Source: a virus. Taken from it: 34,111 bases of DNA. Under the pieces are notes generated by a model. That model ran no database searches and was not told the origin of the DNA. It was given only the letters and a program-made list of their open reading frames with translations. Position numbers and translations under genes: made by a program. The DNA lies in IMG/VR virus record IMGVR_UViG_3300006805_001809, positions 1 to 34,111 of that record; one strand, given 5' to 3'. Of this stretch, positions 23,851 through 34,111 are shown piece after piece; positions within the stretch are counted from its first letter, which is position 1, and every line of letters begins with the position of its first letter.

Positions 23851-25242
23851 CTACGACTCGGCCAAGTCCGAGATGCGGACGGCACTGGTCGGCGCGTCGC
23901 AGATCAGCTCGCCCTGCCAGTAGTATTCGAGGTCGAAGTAGGCCGAAGCCGTCTTCGTCAGGTACGGCACCTGTCCGTCGAACACTTCCGACAGCACCTG
24001 CGGCACTTCGTTTTCGCCGTGACCGATCCAGAAGTGCTCGGTGTTGAAGCCGATCAGGTTGTTCGCCTGGAAGAACGGATCGACGTAGATGCGGGTGCCG
24101 CTGAAGCGGTAGATCGTCTCGCCGTTCGAGTTCTCGCCCTGCTTCATGCCGGACTCGTCGCGACCGATGCCCACGCCGTCTCCAAACTCCTTTGCCTGCG
24201 ACAGCGCAAAGAACGTGTCTTCGCGAAGCGTCTCATGGTAGCGGCGAACGAGGTTCAGGTTCGTCATCCACGCATCGACCGGCTTGCCGCCGCGCTTGCG
24301 AACCGAGTCCGACGCCTGAAGCATCAGGTCTTCGGTCAGCGGACGGTTCGTGCCCGCGCCTGCGGGGTTGGTCAGCAGCGTGGCCTTCCAGAAGTCGTTG
24401 CCCGTGGTCGAGCGGTTGATGCCGCCCAGGTTGCCGACGACGGCCTTCGGGTTCGCGTCCGAAATCCACGCGAGGATGCCCGCCATGTGCAGCGAACCCG
24501 CCGAGGACACGGTGCCAGCAGCAGTGTAGTAATCGCCAGCCGCTGTGCCCGCTGCCGCCGAGGTCTGCGTGATCTCGTTCGTGATGACGTTCACCGCGAG
24601 AACCGCTTCACCGCTGATGATCTTGGTGTTGTCGTCCGAGTCGTCCATTAGGTCGATAACCATGCCGAGGTCAGTCAGCGGCATCGAGCCGACCGTGACG
24701 GTGGCCTGATTGTCGGCGGCAGGCAGAATACCCAGTTCGCCTCGCCCGTAGCCGAGCAAGTCGGCGTTCATCAGGCGGAACATGCGAGCGCGGAACGCGG
24801 TGTCGATGAAGTCGATCGCCCGCTCGAACGAGAAGCGGTCGTTGCGAGCGTCCTGCATCAACTTCCAGGTCACGTTGATCGCGCCGTAGAATTCCTGCAA
24901 CGAGAACGACGCTTCCTGCGTATCCGCCTGAGCGCGAGTCGTCGGCAGGGTGCCGCCTTCGGTGATACCCGCGAAGATGCCGGCGTTCTTCGTGCGGATC
25001 GGCATCAACTGCTGACCGCGACCGCCGAGGGGCATCTGTTTCCGCTTGAGGATGTTCCACAGCGCCACTTCGAGGGACGCCAGATACAGCACGCGATCGG
25101 TGCCGTACGTGTACTTGAGCATTTCGAGCACGTCGGACGTGCTGACGGCGAAGGCGTGACCTTCACCGAATGCGAAAAGGAAAATCAGGCTCAGGAATGC
25201 CACGGCCAGTTTCGGGCATCGAGCGAGAAGGTAAGTCACCAT
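23851..25242 (-). CDS. Major capsid protein (HK97-fold type) with signal-peptide-like N-terminus
   Basis: A 463-residue protein following the scaffold gene. The body is typical of phage major capsid proteins: an N-arm with SDVLEMLKYTYGTDRVLYL, a long spine-helix region (SFSLQEFYGAINVTWKLMQD ... FIDTAFRARMFRLMNADLL), a polymorphic beta-rich A-domain, and C-terminal strands (NGETIYRFSGTRIYVDPFFQ, HFWIGHGENEVPQVLSEV, ASAYFDLEYYWQGELI). The first 32 residues are unusual: basic YLLARCPK, a hydrophobic core LAVAFLSLIFLFAF, then EGHAFA before VSTSDV, which looks like a cleavable signal peptide. GGGAG stands 10 nt upstream of this ATG. It may be a propeptide removed during maturation. Confidence 0.85.
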   Translation of the reverse strand: MVTYLLARCPKLAVAFLSLIFLFAFGEGHAFAVSTSDVLEMLKYTYGTDRVLYLASLEVALWNILKRKQMPLGGRGQQLMPIRTKNAGIFAGITEGGTLPTTRAQADTQEASFSLQEFYGAINVTWKLMQDARNDRFSFERAIDFIDTAFRARMFRLMNADLLGYGRGELGILPAADNQATVTVGSMPLTDLGMVIDLMDDSDDNTKIISGEAVLAVNVITNEITQTSAAAGTAAGDYYTAAGTVSSAGSLHMAGILAWISDANPKAVVGNLGGINRSTTGNDFWKATLLTNPAGAGTNRPLTEDLMLQASDSVRKRGGKPVDAWMTNLNLVRRYHETLREDTFFALSQAKEFGDGVGIGRDESGMKQGENSNGETIYRFSGTRIYVDPFFQANNLIGFNTEHFWIGHGENEVPQVLSEVFDGQVPYLTKTASAYFDLEYYWQGELICDAPTSAVRISDLAES

Positions 25243-25308
25243 GCGTGTCGCACTCCCTGCGAAAAACAGTACGGGGCGGGCTACGGTGAGCCACGGACGG
25301 TACGGGAG

Positions 25309-25324
25309 GCGATCAGATGATCGC
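25309..25324. repeat. Short inverted repeat between scaffold and capsid genes
   Basis: GCGATCA (25309-25315) and TGATCGC (25318-25324) form a 7-bp inverted repeat with a 2-nt centre in the 101-nt gap 25243-25343. The rest of the gap holds the capsid ribosome binding site and a short TTTTT stretch on the minus strand. The repeat could be a protein-binding site or an mRNA stability hairpin. No promoter is evident there. Confidence 0.4.
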
Positions 25325-25343
25325 GGCGACGGGTCGGAACTAA

Positions 25344-26258
25344 CTAGGTGTTCGCGCTTGCGCCGTTGCGAGCGCCGAACAGCATGTCTGCGATCTGCGT
25401 CTTCGAGGTCGCCGGGTTGTAGCGAGCGTTCCCGGACGGTGAGGCACCGCCACCGGGACGCACGAATCGGCGTTCCTTCGCACGCTTCAAGTCAGCCTGC
25501 TGCTGCGCGGTGAAAAACTTCTTCATCGCGTTCACGCGGCTCTGAAGCATCTGCGTAAATTCTTCCGGCTTGTCGAATTCCCAAGCGTCGAGGATGTCCT
25601 GCGCCACATCCTGAAGGAACGGGTCTTTCGCATCGTAACCTTCACCGAGCGCGGCAATCGCGGACGACACCCGCGACTGGCGCTCTTGACCCGAGCGTTC
25701 CTTCGCGAGCGTGCCGACGCCACCTTGCAACTTCTTGACAACGCCAATGAGTTGCTGATTTTGCTGCTGGAGATTCGCGACCGCCTGAGCCACCGGCCCG
25801 AGGGTGCCGTCGAGCGCCTGCGCGAGCTGCTGACCGCTGAGAATCGGCACGTCACGCACGCCAGCGAGCGGATCAACGCGCTGCTGCGGCTGCTGTGGCT
25901 GGCCGTGCTGCTGCTTCTGCTGCTGCAACGTCTGCGCGAGCTTGCGAAGATTGTTTTCGATTTCCTGGCGGGTGAGTTGCTTAACGTTGTCGTAGTCCGA
26001 CTTGGGGACGTACTGCGATGAGATGAATTCCTTCATCGTCATCGTTTTGCCGTCGCGGGTGATCTGCATGTCGTCGCTATACGCGACTGGAGCCGAGCCA
26101 CCCTGCGACGACGAACTCTGCTGCCCACCGTAGGACGCCTGACCGCCGCCCTGTTGACCGGCCTGCGATCCGCCGCCTGAACCACCCGCGCCTGACCCTG
26201 CGTCAGTGCCTTCGTGCGACACGCCTTGCGGCATCGAAGCGAGGTTGAGGTTGAGCAT
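25344..26258 (-). CDS. Capsid scaffolding protein
   Basis: A 304-residue, Gln/Gly/Ser-rich, mainly helical protein immediately before the capsid gene, the classical scaffold position. The N-terminus is Gly/Ser/Gln low complexity. Then comes KTMTMKEFISSQYVPKSDYD, a coiled-coil region full of Gln (KLAQTLQQQKQQHGQPQQ, VANLQQQNQQLIGVVKKL), and a C-terminal charged helix typical of scaffold capsid-binding ends (VNAMKKFFTAQQQADLKRAK, RRFVRPGGG). It has its own promoter (26266-26295). The ATG is 7 nt after the -10 hexamer without Shine-Dalgarno sequence, so a leaderless mRNA is predicted. Confidence 0.8.
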   Translation of the reverse strand: MLNLNLASMPQGVSHEGTDAGSGAGGSGGGSQAGQQGGGQASYGGQQSSSSQGGSAPVAYSDDMQITRDGKTMTMKEFISSQYVPKSDYDNVKQLTRQEIENNLRKLAQTLQQQKQQHGQPQQPQQRVDPLAGVRDVPILSGQQLAQALDGTLGPVAQAVANLQQQNQQLIGVVKKLQGGVGTLAKERSGQERQSRVSSAIAALGEGYDAKDPFLQDVAQDILDAWEFDKPEEFTQMLQSRVNAMKKFFTAQQQADLKRAKERRFVRPGGGASPSGNARYNPATSKTQIADMLFGARNGASANT

Positions 26259-26265
26259 GGGCGAG

Positions 26266-26295
26266 ATTATGCGGTAAGTGCTTGAAACGTGTCAA
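26266..26295 (-). promoter_or_regulatory. Promoter of the scaffold-capsid genes, predicted leaderless start
   Basis: Minus-strand TTGACA (26290-26295), an 18-nt spacer and CATAAT (26266-26271) give one of the best sigma70-like promoters in the window. The scaffold ATG (26256-26258) follows 7 nt after the -10. A further TTGACC half-site lies upstream (26301-26306). It re-establishes late transcription directly behind the replication cassette. Confidence 0.7.
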
Positions 26296-26320
26296 TCCCT
26301 GGTCAAGTGTCCACGATGAG

Positions 26321-26890
26321 CTAGGTCTGTTCTTCGCCCTCGAACACGTCCTGCGCGGATACTTCCTGCGCGATCGGCTTCATCGTCACCATCGGACGAA
26401 TCGCCTTCAATGCTTGCGCGACGACGGGATGTGTTTTCGCAACGTAGATTTCGCGCTGCGGTAGTTGGCCGCTAATGTATTGCGCGTATTCGGTGGCCGT
26501 GAGCGGCGTGCGATACGGAGGTTCGTTGTAGGCGGGAGGCGGCACTCCGCAATCAGGGCAGCGCACGTAGTTCGCATCGTACAGAAGCCCGTTCGACCAG
26601 AACGGTGCGCTGAGAATCCAAGTGTTGCCGTGGCACGTCGCGCACTCGTTGCGAGTCTGCTCGTACTTCGACATGCGCGACCGGATTGCATTCGTGATCT
26701 TTCCGAGTGCCGGCCAGAACGTGTCCGTCGCATCTTGAATCACCTGGTCTATCGCATTCGACAGCACATCGACGTGATAGTGCGACAGCGCCTTAAACCA
26801 GTCGCGCACGATTTCGTCGTGGTCGTCTTCATTGATGCGAAAGTGTTTTTGTAGACGCCCGAACTCGCGGTGAAATTCGTTGATCGTCAT
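26321..26890 (-). CDS. Helicase-loader-like protein (G39P-type N-terminus, zinc-binding C-terminus)
   Basis: A 189-residue protein whose start overlaps the initiator stop as ATGA. The N-terminal ~75 residues are helical: INEFHREFGRLQKHFRINED, EIVRDWFKALSHYHVDVLSN, AIDQVIQDATDTFWPALGK, ITNAIRSRM. This resembles the small N-terminal domain of SPP1 G39P-type loaders and other phage helicase-loader proteins (FxxEFxxL ... WFxAL ... FxPxLGxI). The middle has ECATCHGNTWIL and YVRCPDCGVPPP, forming a C-x2-C ... C-x2-C zinc site. The initiator-loader pair recalls lambda O and P. It would deliver the host DnaB helicase to the phage origin. Confidence 0.6.
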   Translation of the reverse strand: MTINEFHREFGRLQKHFRINEDDHDEIVRDWFKALSHYHVDVLSNAIDQVIQDATDTFWPALGKITNAIRSRMSKYEQTRNECATCHGNTWILSAPFWSNGLLYDANYVRCPDCGVPPPAYNEPPYRTPLTATEYAQYISGQLPQREIYVAKTHPVVAQALKAIRPMVTMKPIAQEVSAQDVFEGEEQT

Positions 26891-27825
26891 CGTCTCGCTC
26901 CGTTTCGTTTGTGGGCTTGTTCGGCTTTCACTTCGCGGTCAATGCGAGCGAGGTCTTCGGGTGTTAGTTCGCGCCGTTGCTTTTTCGCCTTCGTCGGAGC
27001 TGGCGCAATCCGACCAATCTGAATCAGCCACGCATCGAAGTGTTGAAGGAGCCACACCATGTCGCCCGGTAGTTTCCCTTCGGGTATGAGCGCCTTGACG
27101 TGTTCGTAGAATGAATTGATCGCTTCGCGAGTCTCGCCTGGAGTCTCGCCGTGGTATTTCTTCGCGAGGGTGTCGTACTGGTTGTAAGTCAGACAGAACT
27201 TGGAAGTCGGCCCACCGCAAATCGTGTGCTTCGCGTGATCTCTCGGGAGTGAACCAGGCTCATTCGCTCCGTCTCCGTTCCTTCGTTCAGCGAATCGCCT
27301 GTCGTGACCGCCGCCGTGATTTTCATTCGGCGCTGTTGACACGGAGGTTTCTCTTACTGTACGTACTGGTACCGCTTCAACGGTACGTACCTCTGTATCT
27401 GCTTCTGTATATGTATCTGTCTGTATTGACGTCGCTTGACAGTCATTGACAGTCAAGGTTGACAGACCTCGACGTTGGCGTGACTCGCGTTGCTTCTCTC
27501 GGTTGTATGCGCGAAGGGCTTCATCGTCTCGCATGGCGCGATAGATCGCGTGGCTCACAACGCGATACTGGAACTGCCCATCACGAATCAATCGGCACCC
27601 ATCGTGATCTGGATTTCTACTCTCTGGGTCAGGCTGGCAAAGGAAGTCAATCGCCTTCCTTACAGACTCCACGTCGGCACCGATAATTCCAGCCAGTAAT
27701 CGCGGATTTAGCTCTATAGAACTCTCGTATGTGTTGGCGATGACGTACGACCACACCGCGAAAACAGTTGGCCCAGAGCCACACAGTGAACCAGTAAAAG
27801 TTGACGCAAACAGTTTTCCGTACAT
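26887..27825 (-). CDS. Phage replication initiator (lambda O-like) candidate
   Basis: A 312-residue protein starting MYGKLFASTFTGSLCGSGPT. The N-terminal ~115 residues look like the winged-helix domain of phage O-type initiators: FAVWSYVIANTYES, ELNPRLLAGIIGADVESVRK, IDFLCQPDPESRNPDHDG, FQYRVVSHAIYRAMRDD, RAYNREKQRESRQRRG. The pattern QPDPESRxPDxDG is frequent in such phage proteins. The middle is polar and disordered, and the C-terminal domain (YNQYDTLAKKYHGETPGE ... DMVWLLQHFDAWLIQ) could bind the loader. The stretch encoding residues ~121-133 contains TTGAC repeats, like the origin inside the lambda O gene. It overlaps the loader gene by 4 nt. Confidence 0.65.
   Translation of the reverse strand: MYGKLFASTFTGSLCGSGPTVFAVWSYVIANTYESSIELNPRLLAGIIGADVESVRKAIDFLCQPDPESRNPDHDGCRLIRDGQFQYRVVSHAIYRAMRDDEALRAYNREKQRESRQRRGLSTLTVNDCQATSIQTDTYTEADTEVRTVEAVPVRTVRETSVSTAPNENHGGGHDRRFAERRNGDGANEPGSLPRDHAKHTICGGPTSKFCLTYNQYDTLAKKYHGETPGETREAINSFYEHVKALIPEGKLPGDMVWLLQHFDAWLIQIGRIAPAPTKAKKQRRELTPEDLARIDREVKAEQAHKRNGARR
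27359..27464. other. Putative replication origin inside the initiator gene
   Basis: Four TTGAC elements lie at 27426, 27436, 27446 and 27459. The second and third form a perfect 10-bp tandem repeat TTGACAGTCA (27436-27455), and the last is half of an imperfect palindrome AGTCAA-GG-TTGACA (27451-27464). Directly beside them, 27391-27430 is AT-richer and carries four CTGTAT units, a possible unwinding element. Next comes GTACCG/CGGTAC (27369-27374 and 27381-27386) with a 6-nt loop, flanked by two GTACGTAC copies (27359-27366, 27383-27390). Iterons with an adjoining easily melted stretch inside the initiator gene match the lambda ori plan. Confidence 0.5.
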
Positions 27826-27828
27826 GGG

Positions 27829-28062
27829 TTATTCGTCCCCTTCGAGGACAAGATTTCGACGGCATTTTGTGCAGCGGATCAGACGCGGTAGGGCGCGTTT
27901 TCCAGGCTCAAAAACGAGGGCTGACGAGCTGTCGTCGTTGCCAATTTGGGCCATAACCAGCCCGACAACAGGCAGGGGGGCTACAGAGCCGCAAATACAC
28001 TCGTAATTGATTGAGGGTGAGTCACTTGGGACGTTTCCCCAGTCGATAACTTGCCATGACAT
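27829..28062 (-). CDS. Small zinc-ribbon protein, first gene of the replication cassette
   Basis: A 77-residue protein from the ATG at 28062 (MSWQVIDWGNVPSD). An upstream in-frame ATG at 28089 lies within the operator sequence and is less likely. It contains NYECICGSVAPLP and near the C-terminus LPRLIRCTKCRRNLVLEGDE, making a C-x-C ... C-x2-C zinc ribbon. The tail is faintly like the Mu Com protein, a zinc-finger translational activator of mom, but similarity of such short motifs means little. It stands 3 nt before the initiator gene and directly behind the operator/promoter region, so it may be an early regulator. Confidence 0.65.
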   Translation of the reverse strand: MSWQVIDWGNVPSDSPSINYECICGSVAPLPVVGLVMAQIGNDDSSSALVFEPGKRALPRLIRCTKCRRNLVLEGDE

Positions 28063-28070
28063 GATCGCGC

Positions 28071-28119
28071 ATCTTGTCAAACTTGACATCGCGTGTCAAT
28101 ACGATTGTCAAGTTTGACA
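28071..28119 (-). promoter_or_regulatory. Operator array and promoter of the replication cassette
   Basis: Two perfect 14-bp palindromes, TGTCAA-AC-TTGACA (28075-28088) and TGTCAA-GT-TTGACA (28106-28119), are exact reverse complements of each other with centres 31 bp apart, about three helical turns. Between them is one more half-site (28094-28099). On the minus strand this is TTGACA and can serve as the -35, with CAAGAT (28071-28076) 17 nt away as a weak -10 and the ATG at 28062 8 nt later. A repressor on both palindromes would bracket the -35 and cover the -10. Confidence 0.65.
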
Positions 28120-28133
28120 GTCACGCCGTGACG

Positions 28134-30449
28134 CTACATCGGCCCTCGACCGCCACCATTACCACGCTGCGCGGCCTGACTCCGCATCAACTCTTGCATC
28201 GTCTCCACCAGTGAGGGCTGGCCGTTGCCGCCTTGTGCCTGGTCGCGTTGCAGGTCAACCTGCGTGATCGCGGCTTCTGTGGCTGTGGATGCGGCTTTCG
28301 CGGCGGCTTGCTGCGTGGCCATTGCGACCGCGTTCTGCATCATCTTCGAGTCCATGACGTTTTGCTGTTGATCGTGCAGGTCTTGCAGGAACTTCTGGCA
28401 CTTGTTGTAGAAGTCTACAAAGCCCTGTTTCACGGTCGTAGAGGCACGTAGCCACTCGGTCGTGGACATCACCGACTCGAATTCGTCCATCAACACGTCG
28501 TGGTCGTAGAATGGCATGGGGAGGTTCGGGTCGAGTTGTTCGCCGCGCTGAAGCACCATGATGAATTCGCGAGCGAGCTTCCGATACTGAGACTCGCGAT
28601 CTTCGCGGTTCGTATCGTTGTATTTCAGGTCGTCCGCGATCTTCGAGATGTCGATCTTTCCAGTGCGCCGGTTCATGTAGAGCGCGGCCAGTGGGCCTTC
28701 GAGACGTTCACGCACGCGAGCTTCGCGGAGTGACGCCAGTTCCGGCAGTAACGTCGCCCGGTCCACGGAAATCTCGTAGTCCCATCCATCTTTGAGAATC
28801 AGGGACTTGTTGAACACCATCACTTCGTCGCGAAGGTTCGCACCCGTGTAGTGCAGCGTCCGAATCGGCTCGTAGAACCGCTTGACGAGGTTCACGCGCT
28901 TGTTATGAATCTCCGCGAGCTGTTCGCCTAGGTGCGTGAACACCGGCCCGTCTTCAGAGTCGAGAATTTCCTGCAACATCGGAATCGCCATCGGCCCGCG
29001 CATCTGACCGGGGAATTTCCGCTGCGACAGGAGGTCAGCCGACCCCAGTGCTTCGATGAACTCGGTCGCGATGTTGATCGTCTGCGGAAAGAATGCGGGC
29101 AACTGTCCACGTTGAACGACCTGGACAAGGTTGTTGCCTTGATCGTCGATACCGCCTTCGATGATGCCGTGGTAGTCAGCCGGAATGTCTTCGCGCTTGA
29201 GGTCGCCGCCGATGGAGATCATCTCGTAGACCTGCGCGTTCGCGGCTTCTCCCAACTGCGACATGCGCTTGTTGAGGAACTTCTGACCCGGCACCATGTC
29301 CGTGATGAAGTCCGATGACCAGAACGACGTGGCGTTCGGTCGCCAGTGAATGTCGGTGCAGGGAATCTCGGGATAGTCCGCGAGATCGCCCTTGTCGAGA
29401 ATCGCGCCGTCCGGGGTGAACATGCACCGCGACCCTTGCGGGTTCTTCACCGAGCGCGGAGCGTAGCGCGTCAGGACGATGCACATATCCGGGTCGCCGG
29501 GCATCTGCGTTCCCTGAATCGCCGGCACCAGGTCTTTCAGGTTCATGTTCGCGACCACGGGCGAGTTGCCGTCCTTGATGACGGTTCGCACGATGTTCAG
29601 GTCGCCGTTGTATTGCACCTTCGCCGCAATCTCCGGGCCGAAGTTATCCTCGACCCATCCGCGAGTCTTCAACTGCGCGAGGTAGCACGCCTGATCGCCT
29701 GCGAGGTCACGAATGCGCTTCACCGATGCGTCGATAAAGAAATCCAGCGGGGAATACAGTTCACTCCCTACGTCGCCGGTCATCTGGACGGTTTCCTTCG
29801 GCTTGAAGCGTTCCTGCGGGGCACCAGCGGCGATCATCTTCGCGACGACAGACTCAGGGACTTCCGCGTCACCCTGCCACTGGTCTAGCCACACCAATTC
29901 CTTAATCGGCTGGCCCAGTTCATCGACTTGGCCGGTATCGACGTACTCCGGGAGCGATTCGTTGCCGACCTGTTCCATCCACGGCGTGTGCTCGATGACG
30001 ACGCCGCCGATGAGTAGCCAGAACAGGCGATTCCAGTGCTGCTGACCCTCTTTAACTTTGCGGTTCAAAGCAAGAATCAGTTTCGAGACGACATCGGCCT
30101 GATCCCACGCGGCAGGGTCGAGCGTGTTCGGCACGGCCTTGAACTTGTTGTCGATTGACCACAAGCGCCCGATCTTCCGCCAGGTCGCCCGTCCGATCAT
30201 GTTGAAGACGAGAAATAGCTTGTTCTTGTCCTCATCGTTCATCGGACGCCCGACGAGGTTGAACCCGTTCTGTTGTACGAAGTGCTCACCGAACACCATG
30301 CACAGGTTCGTCAGGACGCGCATCTCGACGCCGCCGGCACGACGCGCTTTCTGGTTCTGGAGTCGCCGCCAGTCCTTCGTGTATTCGTCTACGAGGTCGG
30401 CTTCGATCTTGTCGGCTTGCGTCTTACTGGTGGGCTGAGCTTTCGCCAT
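28134..30449 (-). CDS. Portal protein (long, P22-like type)
   Basis: A 771-residue protein with GGAG 7 nt upstream of the ATG. Length and features fit the large portals of short-tailed phages. There is a helical N-terminus (LVDEYTKDWRRLQNQKARRA), a wing region with beta strands (SELYSPLDFFIDASVKRIRD, DPDMCIVLTRYAPRSVKN), a clip/stem region with PNATSFWSSDFITDMVPGQK and FLNKRMSQLGEAANAQVYEM, and a C-terminal Gln/Ala-rich helical barrel (VAMATQQAAAKAASTATEAA). The portal forms the dodecameric DNA channel at one vertex and docks the terminase. It is followed by the operator array rather than directly by a scaffold gene. Confidence 0.85.
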   Translation of the reverse strand: MAKAQPTSKTQADKIEADLVDEYTKDWRRLQNQKARRAGGVEMRVLTNLCMVFGEHFVQQNGFNLVGRPMNDEDKNKLFLVFNMIGRATWRKIGRLWSIDNKFKAVPNTLDPAAWDQADVVSKLILALNRKVKEGQQHWNRLFWLLIGGVVIEHTPWMEQVGNESLPEYVDTGQVDELGQPIKELVWLDQWQGDAEVPESVVAKMIAAGAPQERFKPKETVQMTGDVGSELYSPLDFFIDASVKRIRDLAGDQACYLAQLKTRGWVEDNFGPEIAAKVQYNGDLNIVRTVIKDGNSPVVANMNLKDLVPAIQGTQMPGDPDMCIVLTRYAPRSVKNPQGSRCMFTPDGAILDKGDLADYPEIPCTDIHWRPNATSFWSSDFITDMVPGQKFLNKRMSQLGEAANAQVYEMISIGGDLKREDIPADYHGIIEGGIDDQGNNLVQVVQRGQLPAFFPQTINIATEFIEALGSADLLSQRKFPGQMRGPMAIPMLQEILDSEDGPVFTHLGEQLAEIHNKRVNLVKRFYEPIRTLHYTGANLRDEVMVFNKSLILKDGWDYEISVDRATLLPELASLREARVRERLEGPLAALYMNRRTGKIDISKIADDLKYNDTNREDRESQYRKLAREFIMVLQRGEQLDPNLPMPFYDHDVLMDEFESVMSTTEWLRASTTVKQGFVDFYNKCQKFLQDLHDQQQNVMDSKMMQNAVAMATQQAAAKAASTATEAAITQVDLQRDQAQGGNGQPSLVETMQELMRSQAAQRGNGGGRGPM

Positions 30450-30684
30450 AGGTCGTCTCCGTGACGGAAATCAGGACGGAGATGTCCACGGCGCGTAACC
30501 CTGTCGGGGTCGCTTTAGCCATGAACTCGACGGGCGAATGCTGTTCGAGGGCGTGGAAGGCGTGCGGGTATTGCATGAGCGACGGAATGAAAAAATAATC
30601 TCTGAGGTCGTCACCCATGATGACCCCAAAGATTTTCCCGTGCTTGTGAATCAGCTTGACCTTACCGCGAATGCGATGTGTCAC
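30424..30684 (-). CDS. Cold-shock-domain-like protein
   Basis: An 86-residue protein with a GTG start overlapping the stop of a preceding small frame (GTGA). The order RGKVKLIHKHGKIFGVIMG, DDLRDYFFIPSLMQ, VEFMAKATPTGLRAVDISVL follows the OB-fold of CspA-type cold-shock domains: GxVK, the RNP1-like GKIFGVI, the RNP2-like DYFFIPS, and the late VEF ... GLRAxxI strands. It likely binds single-stranded RNA or DNA. It overlaps the portal start by 26 nt. Aromatic residues in RNP1 are fewer than in CspA (one Phe rather than two). Why a CSD protein is linked to the portal is unclear. Confidence 0.7.
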   Translation of the reverse strand: MTHRIRGKVKLIHKHGKIFGVIMGDDLRDYFFIPSLMQYPHAFHALEQHSPVEFMAKATPTGLRAVDISVLISVTETTYGESSAHQ

Positions 30685-30866
30685 TTGGAACCGAGATGAG
30701 GGTCGTACGTGACGGGTCGTTCGTCTTCATCGTCAGTGTTTCGTGGGGGAGGCTTCGGCGTCTGCGAGGGCTTGATCGGCAGCGTCGTGGTTCTCCCCGT
30801 TAATGGTCGCGGGGGCGACGCTGTGGCTGGCTGCGGCGGCTTCTGCTGCCTGTAGACTCGCGGCAC
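30681..30866 (-). CDS. Pro-rich overlapping frame, possible gene or +1 frameshift extension
   Basis: A 61-codon frame in +1 register relative to the gene at 30733-31167, overlapping its end. It reads on through 30681 and ends in an acidic tail, NTDDEDERPVTYDPHLGSK. Its stop overlaps the GTG of the cold-shock-like gene (GTGA), as for real coupled genes here, and otherwise 48 nt would be non-coding. The two frames overlap at a C-rich stretch (GCC TCC CCC ACG), where a +1 shift would extend the upstream protein by the acidic tail. Composition (PPQPATASPPRPLTGRTTT) is low complexity, so it may also be chance. Confidence 0.3.
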   Translation of the reverse strand: MPRVYRQQKPPQPATASPPRPLTGRTTTLPIKPSQTPKPPPRNTDDEDERPVTYDPHLGSK

Positions 30867-31167
30867 GTCGATCCTCTCGTTCTTTCAACAGGGCGGCTCG
30901 CCCGACTTCGTGATAGACCTGCTCGGCGTTCTTCCGCACGGCTTCGGCCTTCCCGTCCAGGCCCACGATGCCGCCGTTGACCGGCGCGGTGATGTGGATG
31001 GTTCGCATGAGGAACGTGATCTTCAGGTTCAACTCATCGAGCAGGGCATCGGTCATCTCGACGCCTTCGCGACACTCCGCGTGATTGTTCACGATCGAGG
31101 TCGCGATTTCCTGCAAGCTCGGGATGCGCGGCAACGTCTTCGGCAACGACTTCAACGGATCGCTCAA
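30733..31167 (-). CDS. Hypothetical helical protein upstream of the portal
   Basis: A 144-residue protein. I place the start at the TTG of 31167, which has AGGAG 7 nt upstream. A GTG two codons earlier would sit only 1 nt from that site. The sequence is helical: LKSLPKTLPRIPSLQEIATS, VEMTDALLDELNLKITFLMR, GKAEAVRKNAEQVYHEVGRA, KEREDRRAASLQAAEAAAAS. The C-terminus is polar and Ala-rich. It occupies a position between terminase and portal where a small terminase might be expected, but no HTH is visible. Function unknown. Confidence 0.5.
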   Translation of the reverse strand: MSDPLKSLPKTLPRIPSLQEIATSIVNNHAECREGVEMTDALLDELNLKITFLMRTIHITAPVNGGIVGLDGKAEAVRKNAEQVYHEVGRAALLKEREDRRAASLQAAEAAAASHSVAPATINGENHDAADQALADAEASPTKH

Positions 31168-31173
31168 GTTCAC

Positions 31174-31516
31174 ACTCCTGCACAGTCAACGGGTTAGCCA
31201 CCGAATCGCCGCACCGCTCGGTGAACACGGCACCCCCGGATCGTCTGAGAGGGCGATCCTTGGCGGACACTTGCGAACTACCTGTCAACTTACTTGTCTA
31301 TCGAACAGGTGTTAGCTTGTTAATTAGCTTGTAACGAGTGAAAGTCTAGCATAAATTAGGGTCGCCGCGCTCACCCGTTCCGTCTATGGCGGGGGTACGT
31401 AGTGGTTCGACTCCACGACGGGCGCACTGCTGCGTGACGACGCAGGGGGTCGCCTGGACGACGTTAGAAAGATGGCGTATGAGCAGCCTGACGCGAAAGC
31501 GTCGTGAGCGCGGAGT
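31174..31516. other. Non-coding gap with direct repeats and hairpins
   Basis: This 343-nt gap separates the terminase nuclease gene from the pre-portal genes. It holds a direct repeat TTAGCTTGT (31312-31320 and 31325-31333), an inverted repeat ACCTGT/ACAGGT (31280-31285 and 31305-31310, 19 nt apart), a TTGACA on the minus strand (31284-31289) without a good -10, and on the plus strand a T-arm-like hairpin. Hairpins CTGCGT-GACG-ACGCAG (31430-31445) and GACGC-GAAA-GCGTC (31490-31503) lie near the nuclease stop and may act as weak transcript ends. No gene with a credible start is seen on either strand. Confidence 0.5.
31373..31424 (+). ncRNA. tRNA T-arm/acceptor-like fragment
   Basis: On the plus strand GTGG-TTCGACT-CCAC (31402-31416) reproduces a T stem-loop with the invariant TTCRA loop. 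Adjacent CACCCGT (31373-31379) and ACGGGCG (31418-31424) pair over 6 of 7 positions like an acceptor stem. Only about 21 nt separate acceptor and T-arm, too few for D and anticodon arms, so this is not a complete tRNA. It might be a tRNA remnant, an attachment-site relic or a small structured RNA. No CCA is encoded. Confidence 0.3.
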
Positions 31517-32146
31517 CTACAATTTCCCGAGATGTATGTCTCGACCGTCTCGCTTCTCGCCTGTCTGCATCCGCTGTTCGATCCAGTGGGTCGCTGGCCG
31601 CTTCAAAATAGCCTTCGCGATCGGTCTACGCGAGATGACTTGTTCAAGGGCTGAGAGCGTGTAGTCCTGTCCTGTGGCCCTGACTTTGTACGCCGAGGAT
31701 TCTTCGGGGGGCCAGCGAGCGCGTTGAATTTCGTTCGGCAGGACGGTCAACCACGGCGCGAGGAAGATTTTGTTGTCGTGGAAGTATTCTCGCGTGACTT
31801 CGGTTCGCAGCTCCGCGCCGTGCCCGATGTTGCGCTTCAGGCGCATCTTGCAGCGTTGCATTTCCTTCGAGAACTCGGTGTCAGGGTCTACCCACGCAGA
31901 ACACCGCGAGTCTTTGCCGGCGTAGCTTCGCCAGGTGCGAACGACTAGCTCGCCCCACTCGACGGTCGTCAATCCCGATAGTTCGATTTCTCCATCACCT
32001 ACGTAGTGATAGTTCGGAATTTCCTCTACCACAAGCACCGGATAGCCGGGAAGCAAGGCGAGGATCGCGGCAGACGAAAACCTCCCGACAGACGCACCCA
32101 GTTGATACTCGGTGTGTGCCGGGAGGCGTAACAGATCACGGGTCAT
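31517..32146 (-). CDS. Terminase large subunit, nuclease domain as a separate gene
   Basis: A 209-residue protein that looks like the C-terminal RNase H-type nuclease half of a large terminase. It has an initial strand hairpin (TEYQLGASVGRFSSAAILAL), PVLVVEEIPNYHY, a helix TTVEWGELVVRTWRSYAG, the AWVDPDTEFS segment with Asp87, then LRTEVTREYFHDNKIFLAPW, EIQRARWPPEESSAYKVRAT and GQDYTLSALEQVISRRP with Asp161 in the place of the last catalytic Asp. The first catalytic Asp (usual x-D-x-G) is Ser19 here. It follows the ATPase gene after two tiny genes. Resolving concatemers at packaging would require both proteins to associate. Assignment is by motif order and neighbours. Confidence 0.6.
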   Translation of the reverse strand: MTRDLLRLPAHTEYQLGASVGRFSSAAILALLPGYPVLVVEEIPNYHYVGDGEIELSGLTTVEWGELVVRTWRSYAGKDSRCSAWVDPDTEFSKEMQRCKMRLKRNIGHGAELRTEVTREYFHDNKIFLAPWLTVLPNEIQRARWPPEESSAYKVRATGQDYTLSALEQVISRRPIAKAILKRPATHWIEQRMQTGEKRDGRDIHLGKL

Positions 32147-32152
32147 CGGGCG

Positions 32153-32281
32153 TTACTTCTCGGGGCCAGCTTCCGACTCAAGCTTCTGGTGCAGCTTGCG
32201 GAGTTCGTCCGCGTCGTCGTGTTCAGCGGCCTTCTTCTTCGGTTCCGGCTTCTCGTCCGGTGTCTCGTCTTTCTTGCTCAT
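32153..32281 (-). CDS. Tiny charged protein between the terminase halves
   Basis: A 42-residue protein with a strong GGAGG ribosome binding site 5 nt before its ATG. It is highly charged and disordered to helical (MSKKDETPDEKPEPKKKA, DDADELRKLHQKLESEAG). The better ribosome binding site than most neighbours suggests it is really translated. It separates the ATPase gene from the nuclease gene by its own length plus 6 nt. A bridging or regulatory role in packaging is imaginable but not shown. Confidence 0.55.
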   Translation of the reverse strand: MSKKDETPDEKPEPKKKAAEHDDADELRKLHQKLESEAGPEK

Positions 32282-32312
32282 CACTACCTCCAGCGATTGA
32301 TTGTACGGCAAC

Positions 32313-32432
32313 TTACAGGAACATCCACCACAGCCACGGGAAAAACACACGGATCGGCCACGGGCCGGTGAACTCGCGGCATTCGCCCGTGCGGGAGTTG
32401 CAGATCATCGGAACGACAATTTTCTCGTACAT
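32313..32432 (-). CDS. 39-residue protein with Trp/Phe-rich hydrophobic end
   Basis: A short frame starting at the ATG of 32432, which overlaps the ATPase stop (TAATG), the same coupling seen elsewhere. It reads MYEKIVVPMICNSRTGEC and ends PWPIRVFFPWLWWMFL. The last 13 residues hold four aromatic Trp/Phe clusters and would insert in a membrane or bind a protein groove. It is too short for usual gene callers. The overlap and the absence of any other frame in this stretch support it. Function unknown. Confidence 0.45.
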   Translation of the reverse strand: MYEKIVVPMICNSRTGECREFTGPWPIRVFFPWLWWMFL

Positions 32433-33406
32433 TACTGGATAGCCTCCGCTGCGAGCCTGATTGCCTGTTCATCCCACAGTTGAGGAAAGTTCAACGGGGA
32501 GAATATCTGCGCTTCCTTCTCAAAGTCGTACACCGCGCCGATGTGTCGATTGACCTTGCCGCCCCACGCGACCGCGAACCGCTCCCGCGTCATCAAGCCA
32601 CCTTTATCAGGATCATCACGATCTTTGGCGGCTTGGTCGAACGTGAACGGGTTGCATTGCGCGTCAACGTCGCATGAGCAGTGATAGTAAGGGTCTTTCC
32701 CGTGCGCTTTGTCGTGAAGTTCTCGCACCCAAGCGCGGTCAGGCGTTGTAGCGAAGACGCCAAAGCCGTCACGCTGGCGGACGTTCTGCGCGACGTGCGT
32801 CCAGACATGCAGACCTGGTAACTGGTACGCTTCGGCAAAGTAGTAGGCATCGCGAGTCTTGCCCTTCATCGTTTCCGACTTCCGCGAAGCGCGGTAGCTC
32901 TTGCACTCGAAGTGAGCGCCGTTTTCGAGTGTAAACCACATCGCGCCATCTTTCTTATTGTTTCTTAGCGACGTGGTGGCAAGTCCTAGACCCCTCTCGG
33001 ACAACAGAAACTCAAGCAAGTAGTTGAATTCAGGCTCGCAGGTGTCGTATTCAAGGCCGATGATGTCTACCGCACCATCGACGCCAGCGTAGCCGCTCAT
33101 CCACATCGCCCCGCTCCATGACTTCCCGCCCTTGAAGCCGGCGAGGTCAGCGAGAACGTGAGCCGGCCCACCGGGACGCGGCACAATCAGCCGTGGTTCG
33201 ATCGCCTCATCTTCCAGCATAACTAACTGCGATGGTTGGCCTGGTTGCGGAGCCTGATCGGTCAGCGTCCAGCCCTCACCCGCGAGAATCCATTCGGCCT
33301 GATGGGGAAACGGCGTGATCTCGTACTTCGACCAAACCTTGCGGCGGAACTCGTTGACGAGCGCGTGACGACGGGCATTAACTGATTGACGTGACGGCAA
33401 AATCAT
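32432..33406 (-). CDS. terL: Terminase large subunit, ATPase domain
   Basis: A 324-residue protein whose ATG overlaps the Mom-like gene stop (ATGA). It carries an adenine-binding FPHQAEWI segment (residues 33-40), a Walker A-type ADLAGFKGGKSWSG (Lys95, Ser96), a Walker B-type strand AYYFAEAYQL with Glu192 as catalytic carboxylate, and a GVFATTPD coupling-type motif near 217-223. This is the DNA-translocating motor that fills the prohead through the portal. The frame stops (TAA) just after the linker (FPQLWDEQAIRLAAEAIQ), where a fused nuclease domain would normally start. The nuclease is encoded separately 285 nt further on. Confidence 0.85.
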   Translation of the reverse strand: MILPSRQSVNARRHALVNEFRRKVWSKYEITPFPHQAEWILAGEGWTLTDQAPQPGQPSQLVMLEDEAIEPRLIVPRPGGPAHVLADLAGFKGGKSWSGAMWMSGYAGVDGAVDIIGLEYDTCEPEFNYLLEFLLSERGLGLATTSLRNNKKDGAMWFTLENGAHFECKSYRASRKSETMKGKTRDAYYFAEAYQLPGLHVWTHVAQNVRQRDGFGVFATTPDRAWVRELHDKAHGKDPYYHCSCDVDAQCNPFTFDQAAKDRDDPDKGGLMTRERFAVAWGGKVNRHIGAVYDFEKEAQIFSPLNFPQLWDEQAIRLAAEAIQ

Positions 33407-33984
33407 AAGGCGTAGACGTAGCGATGCTTGGATGCCCTCGGGAGTCGGCGCAGTTCAACGGACGCTGGAGCGTGCGCTGCGCGTGAATAACGCTTCCGCG
33501 TAGGCCCAAGCAGATCGGATGAATCCTCTACCATGTCGAAGCGAGGTGTCCGCCGGTTGTCATCTGTGCGCCCGTCCTGTTTCCAGTTAGACGCCTTATA
33601 GATTAGACCCTTATGTCCAAACGACGGGTCGGCGTAGCTAACGAGCAGGCCAACGTCTCTGTGGTGCGAGCGAACGTAGCGAATAGCCTGACCAATCACA
33701 AAGCTCTCAGTGTTGGCAGGTAGTAAGTCTTCAAGATAAAGCCGCGCCAGTTCCCATACGACGCATCCATAACGCCTCGCCGTCTCACGCGGTGGCATCG
33801 CGAAGCACACCATGCCGCGAGAAACGCCATCAATGACGACAGCGAGAACAAGTGTGACGACTGCTGGACGGCGGCGGAGGTAGTGAGCGCGGAAGAAGCG
33901 ATCGCACTCGGTGATGGTGCTGGGGCGAATAACGGTGCGGTGCCGCCATGATGAGTCGAAACACGGGCCAACGGGTCGGGGCAT
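33403..33984 (-). CDS. mom: Mom-like DNA modification protein
   Basis: A 193-residue protein beginning MPRPVGPCFDSSWRHRTV. It matches the phage Mu Mom type, a GNAT-related enzyme that modifies adenine in phage DNA and so protects it from host restriction. Shared elements are HYLRRRPAVVTLVLAVVIDG, GMVCFAMPPRETARRYG, VVWELARLYLEDLLPANTES, FVIGQAIRYVR, and the diagnostic VSYADPSFGHKGLIYKASNW. I chose the ATG at 33984. The frame is open 40 codons upstream, but that part is AT-rich promoter DNA. It is coupled by ATGA to the terminase gene, so modification and packaging are co-expressed. The C-terminal ~50 residues are basic. Confidence 0.85.
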   Translation of the reverse strand: MPRPVGPCFDSSWRHRTVIRPSTITECDRFFRAHYLRRRPAVVTLVLAVVIDGVSRGMVCFAMPPRETARRYGCVVWELARLYLEDLLPANTESFVIGQAIRYVRSHHRDVGLLVSYADPSFGHKGLIYKASNWKQDGRTDDNRRTPRFDMVEDSSDLLGPTRKRYSRAAHAPASVELRRLPRASKHRYVYAL

Positions 33985-33995
33985 TGTGAGTGCGG

Positions 33996-34046
33996 AGTGT
34001 AGCACGATGGAGTGAAATAAATAGATGTTGACAAATCGAAAGTCAA
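33996..34046 (-). promoter_or_regulatory. AT-rich promoter region upstream of mom and terminase
   Basis: The last ~100 nt are clearly more AT-rich than the rest. Minus-strand TTGACT (34041-34046), 17 nt and TATTTA (34018-34023) form one candidate promoter. A TACACT preceded by TGC (33996-34001), 11 nt before the ATG, is an extended -10 alternative. A TTGACA on the plus strand (34028-34033) lies in the spacer as a possible operator half-site. A CATAAT at 34091-34096 may belong to a further promoter whose -35 is outside the window. Confidence 0.5.
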
Positions 34047-34111
34047 GAGGGTGATAATAACGAAGGTTAACATAACGTGGTAATGACCAGATTATGTAAA
34101 CCAAAGGCGAA

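Follow-up and report, generated by a model that had tools for sequence, protein, structure and literature searches.

Four short repeats lie side by side within the codons of a putative phage replication initiator. Does this segment act as DNA, as an origin embedded in the gene of its own initiator, or do its repeats follow from something else, such as the protein that they encode? We addressed this question by computation in the window, which is the entire virus record of 34,111 bases, and in relatives of the initiator. We put at roughly 85% the probability that positions 27391 to 27463 represent a phage replication origin with the layout of that of lambda, embedded in the linker of the initiator gene. 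The elements considered here are as follows.

26321 to 26890, minus strand: gene of a 189-aa protein, a candidate helicase loader, overlapping the end of the initiator gene
26887 to 27825, minus strand: gene of the 312-aa O-like initiator, with a winged-helix N-domain (residues 4 to 118), a disordered linker (about 135 to 212) and a helical C-domain, as predicted
27359 to 27390, no strand assigned: direct repeats of GTACGTAC and arms of a hairpin (GTACCG/CGGTAC), present in the window and not generally conserved
27391 to 27425, minus strand: period-6 tract, reading TACAGACAGATACATATACAGAAGCAGATACAGAG on that strand, proposed unwinding element
27426 to 27463, minus strand: iteron array, made of GTCAA half-sites and a facing half-site that forms GTCAAGGTTGAC at 27452 to 27463
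27829 to 28062, minus strand: gene of a 77-aa zinc-ribbon-like protein, with Cys pairs in its translation and an alternative start at 28089
28075 to 28119, no strand assigned: second cluster with two perfect TGTCAANNTTGACA palindromes and a half-site at 28094, candidate operator or second binding region of the initiator

Iterons and a weak duplex in the linker codons

TTGAC occurs on the plus strand at 27426, 27436, 27446 and 27459, exact at each position and in steps of 10, 10 and 13 bp, precisely as in the initial annotation. The initiator gene is on the minus strand, and the elements thus read GTCAA in the coding strand, where they occupy codons 121 to 134 of the 312-aa ORF. They are followed by the period-6 tract at codons 134 to 145 and by the hairpin at codons 146 to 156. 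The whole segment therefore corresponds to codons about 121 to 156 of this minus-strand ORF, close to the span of ~121 to 155 assigned to it before. Four CTGTAT units had also been counted next to the array; only three are exact (27393, 27405 and 27421), and ATGTAT is a near copy.

The linker of the window contains six GTCAA, against 1.04 expected from within-gene synonymous shuffles (0/1000). Within 50 bp, GTCAA/TTGAC is nowhere in the 34 kb denser than in the linker array and in the 28075-28119 cluster, with five each. The window contains 23 TTGACA/TGTCAA, more than the 13.7 expected, and GTCAANNTTGAC matches seven times with at most one mismatch (1.1 expected), including three exact copies, all inside the linker array and the 28075-28119 cluster. 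As the genes nearby are encoded by the minus strand, we set aside the possibility that the TTGACA sequences are plus-strand promoters.

Across the 34 kb, no window has a stronger period of six than the period-6 tract. In a calculation with nearest-neighbour energies, the instability of the 40 bp at 27388 reached the 99.985th percentile for the window, in which other weak-duplex segments lie at about 31320 and 34010. An AT-richer melting region had been described at this place: its calculated instability agrees with easy melting, and it is better described as a period-6 CAGA tract. Its low duplex stability fits a process in which iteron binding would open the adjacent tract, by analogy with lambda (PMC5043065, PMC7466680). 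The GTACCG hairpin between two GTACGTAC repeats is present as annotated (repeats at 27359 and 27383; GTACCG arm at 27369-27374; CGGTAC arm at 27381-27386). Neither the hairpin nor the repeats are generally kept in relatives, among which only L126 shares GTACGTAC, and we rejected the hairpin as a conserved part of the origin. GC skew, one of the checks proposed for an origin in the initial annotation, made no sharp turn at the site.

An AlphaFold2 model of the initiator displays a confident winged helix at residues 4 to 118, and residues 135 to 212 have pLDDT values <50, which we read as a predicted disordered linker. The repeats sit in the predicted disordered linker of a winged-helix, O-like protein, in line with their initial placement in a disordered linker. 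The closest solved folds to the model are CRP/CooA-type DNA-binding domains, with a Z score of about 8 that, for a common fold, suggests a DNA-binding architecture rather than a function. The window protein had no match in Pfam, PHROG or NCBIfam. Comparisons with phage records gave no sequence match for the window protein, for its N-domain or for the N-domain of a relative (L015), and a profile of the N-domain matched no PDB sequence.

We propose the following scenario. The winged-helix domain would bind the GTCAA iterons as duplex DNA, and the strain caused by iteron binding would open the adjacent, thermally weak period-6 tract. The opened strand would then receive the helicase, aided by the neighbouring loader protein. 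The gene of the 189-aa candidate loader occupies a position that resembles that of lambda P, and its product matches the phrog_2289 helicase loader only weakly (E 0.17).

Conservation of the repeats and of their layout

Relatives were collected by scanning viral contigs for the N-domain, and two loci in bacterial genomes were added. The sample comprises 109 entries including the window, repeated contigs being left out, and 98 loci, window included, that are non-redundant at 90%; the relatives are mostly uncultivated contigs. Most of the 98 loci harbor an iteron array and then a period-6 tract, mostly (A/G)CAGA(A/T). The clade of the window has linker arrays of GTCAA/GTCAG at 9- to 12-bp steps, often ending like GTCAGCCCATACAGAAGCAGAAGCAG. 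In the wider family the iteron varies by group (e.g., GTCGC, TCAAC, GTAAAC, GTTAGC or GTCACG), and the tract is still mostly composed of CAGA-type hexamers. For its period-6 window, the linker outranks the rest of the locus in 69 of the 98 loci, and about 30 have no dominant period-6 tract there. Among the 68 strong tracts, 52 have CAGA on the coding strand, 4 have it on the other strand, and 12 are made of other units. The tract zones of the relatives have a median instability percentile of 0.99, versus 0.89 in random zones. Of three members fetched once the pattern had been described, the scripted comparison covered two, both from Burkholderiales genomes (L157 and L159) and both with this layout; the third is L158.

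The initial annotation had taken the repeats as a hint of DNA-level function and proposed to look for their conservation beyond amino-acid constraint. Such conservation was found. The linkers of the 41 clade genes contain 144 GTCAR, against 55.6 ± 5.9 in within-gene synonymous shuffles, of which none of 1,000 exceeded 73, in a test that treats relatives as independent and ignores shared descent. Each of the three codon phases contains GTCAR (51/32/31). The spacings within the clade have maxima at 9, 10 and 12, and a strict one-turn phasing rule is therefore not general.

These data bear on the idea that protein design and slippage during replication have produced the repeats as a by-product, i.e., that hexanucleotide microsatellites have yielded an acidic, flexible linker (AEAE, TDTD). 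Perfect tandem units are indeed typical of slippage, and 181 of 205 plus-strand CAGA are in a single codon phase, the one that encodes acidic linkers; protein constraint therefore also acts on the tract. The dipeptides encoded by the tract nevertheless vary among relatives (AE, DT, AD, KQ, RS, DS, QS, SV, AS), and slippage does not account for the excess of iterons over synonymous shuffles, for GTCAR in all phases or for tracts on the opposite strand. It also leaves unexplained the persistence of the layout outside initiator coding sequence in three relatives. In L099 and L100, the initiator ORF stops after about 123 aa, and both iterons and hexamers persist in DNA that no longer codes for the initiator. 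In L067, the arrays precede the initiator gene and are not in the linker; they comprise TAATCCAACG-like units at 10-bp steps, then GCAGAGGCAGAT, in two origin-like copies at about -510 and -180 from the initiator start, with GCAGAG/GCAGAT hexamers. We thus regard slippage as a very unlikely source of the repeats. These three loci represent natural cases of a DNA element separated from the protein that usually overlaps it. In another relative (L022), an in-frame HNH-endonuclease-like insert lies between the N-domain and the tract, about 380 to 600 after the initiator start, and displaces the tract by about 200 bp. About a hundred relatives appear to keep much the same DNA arrangement though the encoded protein changes or ends earlier.

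The conserved repeats might instead mark a recombination joint at which initiators swap their C-terminal domains. The parts that follow the linker are diverse across the family, and in a distant relative (L014) an N-domain of the window's family is joined to a lambda-O-type C-domain, as such a joint would produce. However, this explanation does not predict that clade-specific iteron-like motifs recur upstream of the operon (see below), and exchange could result from a shared origin rather than be its function. We consider it extremely unlikely, and retain an origin as our reading of the linker segment.

The second cluster upstream of the operon

The cluster at 28075-28119, which was absent from the initial annotation, lies directly before the zinc-ribbon-like gene; its palindromes are at 28075-28088 and 28106-28119. 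Several relatives (e.g., L002, L099 and L100) also have a zinc-ribbon-like ORF immediately ahead of the initiator gene. In relatives, upstream clusters are mostly located about 250 to 330 bp before the initiator start. The frequency of GTCAA is 12.6 per kb in the linker, 5.33 in the upstream 600 bp and 1.6 to 2.2 elsewhere. Counting upstream the commonest 6-mer of each linker, irrespective of motif, gave 99 occurrences versus 35.5 expected, a result to which we attach little weight because many of the 6-mers so picked are not iterons.

The arrangement of the half-sites differs between the two clusters of the window, with inverted repeats at 28075-28119 and direct repeats at 27426-27463. Clade-wide this is only a tendency, facing pairs accounting for 14 of 47 upstream versus 12 of 103 in linkers (P = 0.01). 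The relative abundance of facing pairs upstream, and the presence of a palindromic cluster at the expected position of the operon promoter, are what one would see if the GTCAA sites acted on transcription only, as operators for the initiator or for a different phage repressor, with the true origin elsewhere. Such a role would not explain why, in most relatives, the linker array is coupled to a period-6 tract of low stability, nor why this kind of tract is retained in other clades, where the iteron arrays are different. Operators alone are therefore an improbable explanation for the sites, and we favor an origin in the linker accompanied by a second cluster that is probably an operator or a second binding region. 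The winged-helix domain that would bind the iterons probably also binds the 28075-28119 palindromes and might thereby repress or tune its own operon, much like plasmid RepE. By analogy, the palindromic promoter cluster fits autoregulation as in RepE, where inverted repeats at the promoter of the initiator serve that function (PMC13028717).

Comparison with known origins and genomic setting

Lambda, phi80 gene 15 and Stx phages likewise have iterons in initiator linker codons (about 117 to 147) and, after these, a purine-rich coding-strand tract (PMC7466680, PMC5043065). The annotated sites for binding of gp15, the phi80 initiator, are at codons about 121 to 147 of gene 15, the lambda iterons are similarly placed, and the tract of phi80 includes ACAAGAACAAGAAC. 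As in lambda, the site of the window is inside the linker of the initiator gene, comprises several repeats that are putative iterons and adjoins an easily melted region, which supports the lambda-like plan recognized at the outset. The repeats themselves differ. Those of lambda are 18-bp dyads in four copies, whereas the window has 5- to 6-bp half-sites, mostly direct, at 10, 10 and 13 bp, with one palindrome, and its clade departs from lambdoid origins by 5- to 6-bp half-sites at 9- to 12-bp steps. The window also differs from them by its regular CAGA hexamers and by the second iteron cluster before the operon, and its winged-helix family has no sequence match to lambda O. The site would thus be expected to work like the lambda origin, and its layout appears to be that of lambda. 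The putative initiator family was not found in the cultured phage records examined; as no cultured-phage relative of the window protein was detected, we did not file it in the lambdoid O family.

The F plasmid resembles the window in three respects: its origin has direct iterons, its initiator promoter has inverted repeats, and its initiator, RepE, is a winged-helix protein. Unlike in F, the origin of the window is inside the gene, and no sequence relation was found between the initiators. RepE-family proteins have two winged-helix domains, whereas the model of the window protein has one, and RepE54 is only among its weaker Foldseek matches. An origin within the initiator gene has also been postulated for phage P1 oriL, inside repL, with an A/T-rich element and an effect of synonymous changes (PMC9948254). 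The likeness of oriL to the window lies in these features.

The CAGA hexamer tract and the paired promoter cluster are the distinctive parts of the locus relative to known origins. The DnaA-trio of bacterial oriC consists of short repeats that lie beside duplex binding sites and are read as a single strand (PMC10797057), and Rep proteins bind single-stranded repeats of unwinding elements (PMC4081077, PMC10797057). Tentatively, and with less than even odds, the CAGA tract may be a phage counterpart of the DnaA-trio, i.e., a sequence-specific single-strand element that replaces a plain AT-rich region, is read by the initiator, the helicase loader or the primase, and is common to phages whose iterons have diverged. 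The strand opposite the CAGA tract presents CTG every six bases. In contrast to the three-base units that DnaA reads in the trio, those of the window are six bases long, and there is no evidence of DnaA. With a conserved hexamer, the standing question of what an unwinding element needs in addition to weak base pairing becomes directly testable. In the open-access literature we found neither the initiator family nor the hexamer tract described; such a search does not prove absence. The combination of an iteron array and CAGA hexamers after a winged-helix domain provides a sequence rule by which origins can be proposed in a large group of uncultivated phages.

The replication genes are in an odd place for such a module, between a 771-aa ORF and structural genes including that of the major head protein (23851-33406, minus strand). 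The 771-aa ORF, which has no profile match, was taken for a portal by size and position only. At 33403-34104 on the minus strand, a gene product matches the Mom protein family (Pfam PF25680, E 2e-23), which is involved in DNA modification in phage Mu. At 801-2229, also on the minus strand, a YqaJ-type exonuclease is encoded beside an Erf-like annealing protein, forming a recombination pair.
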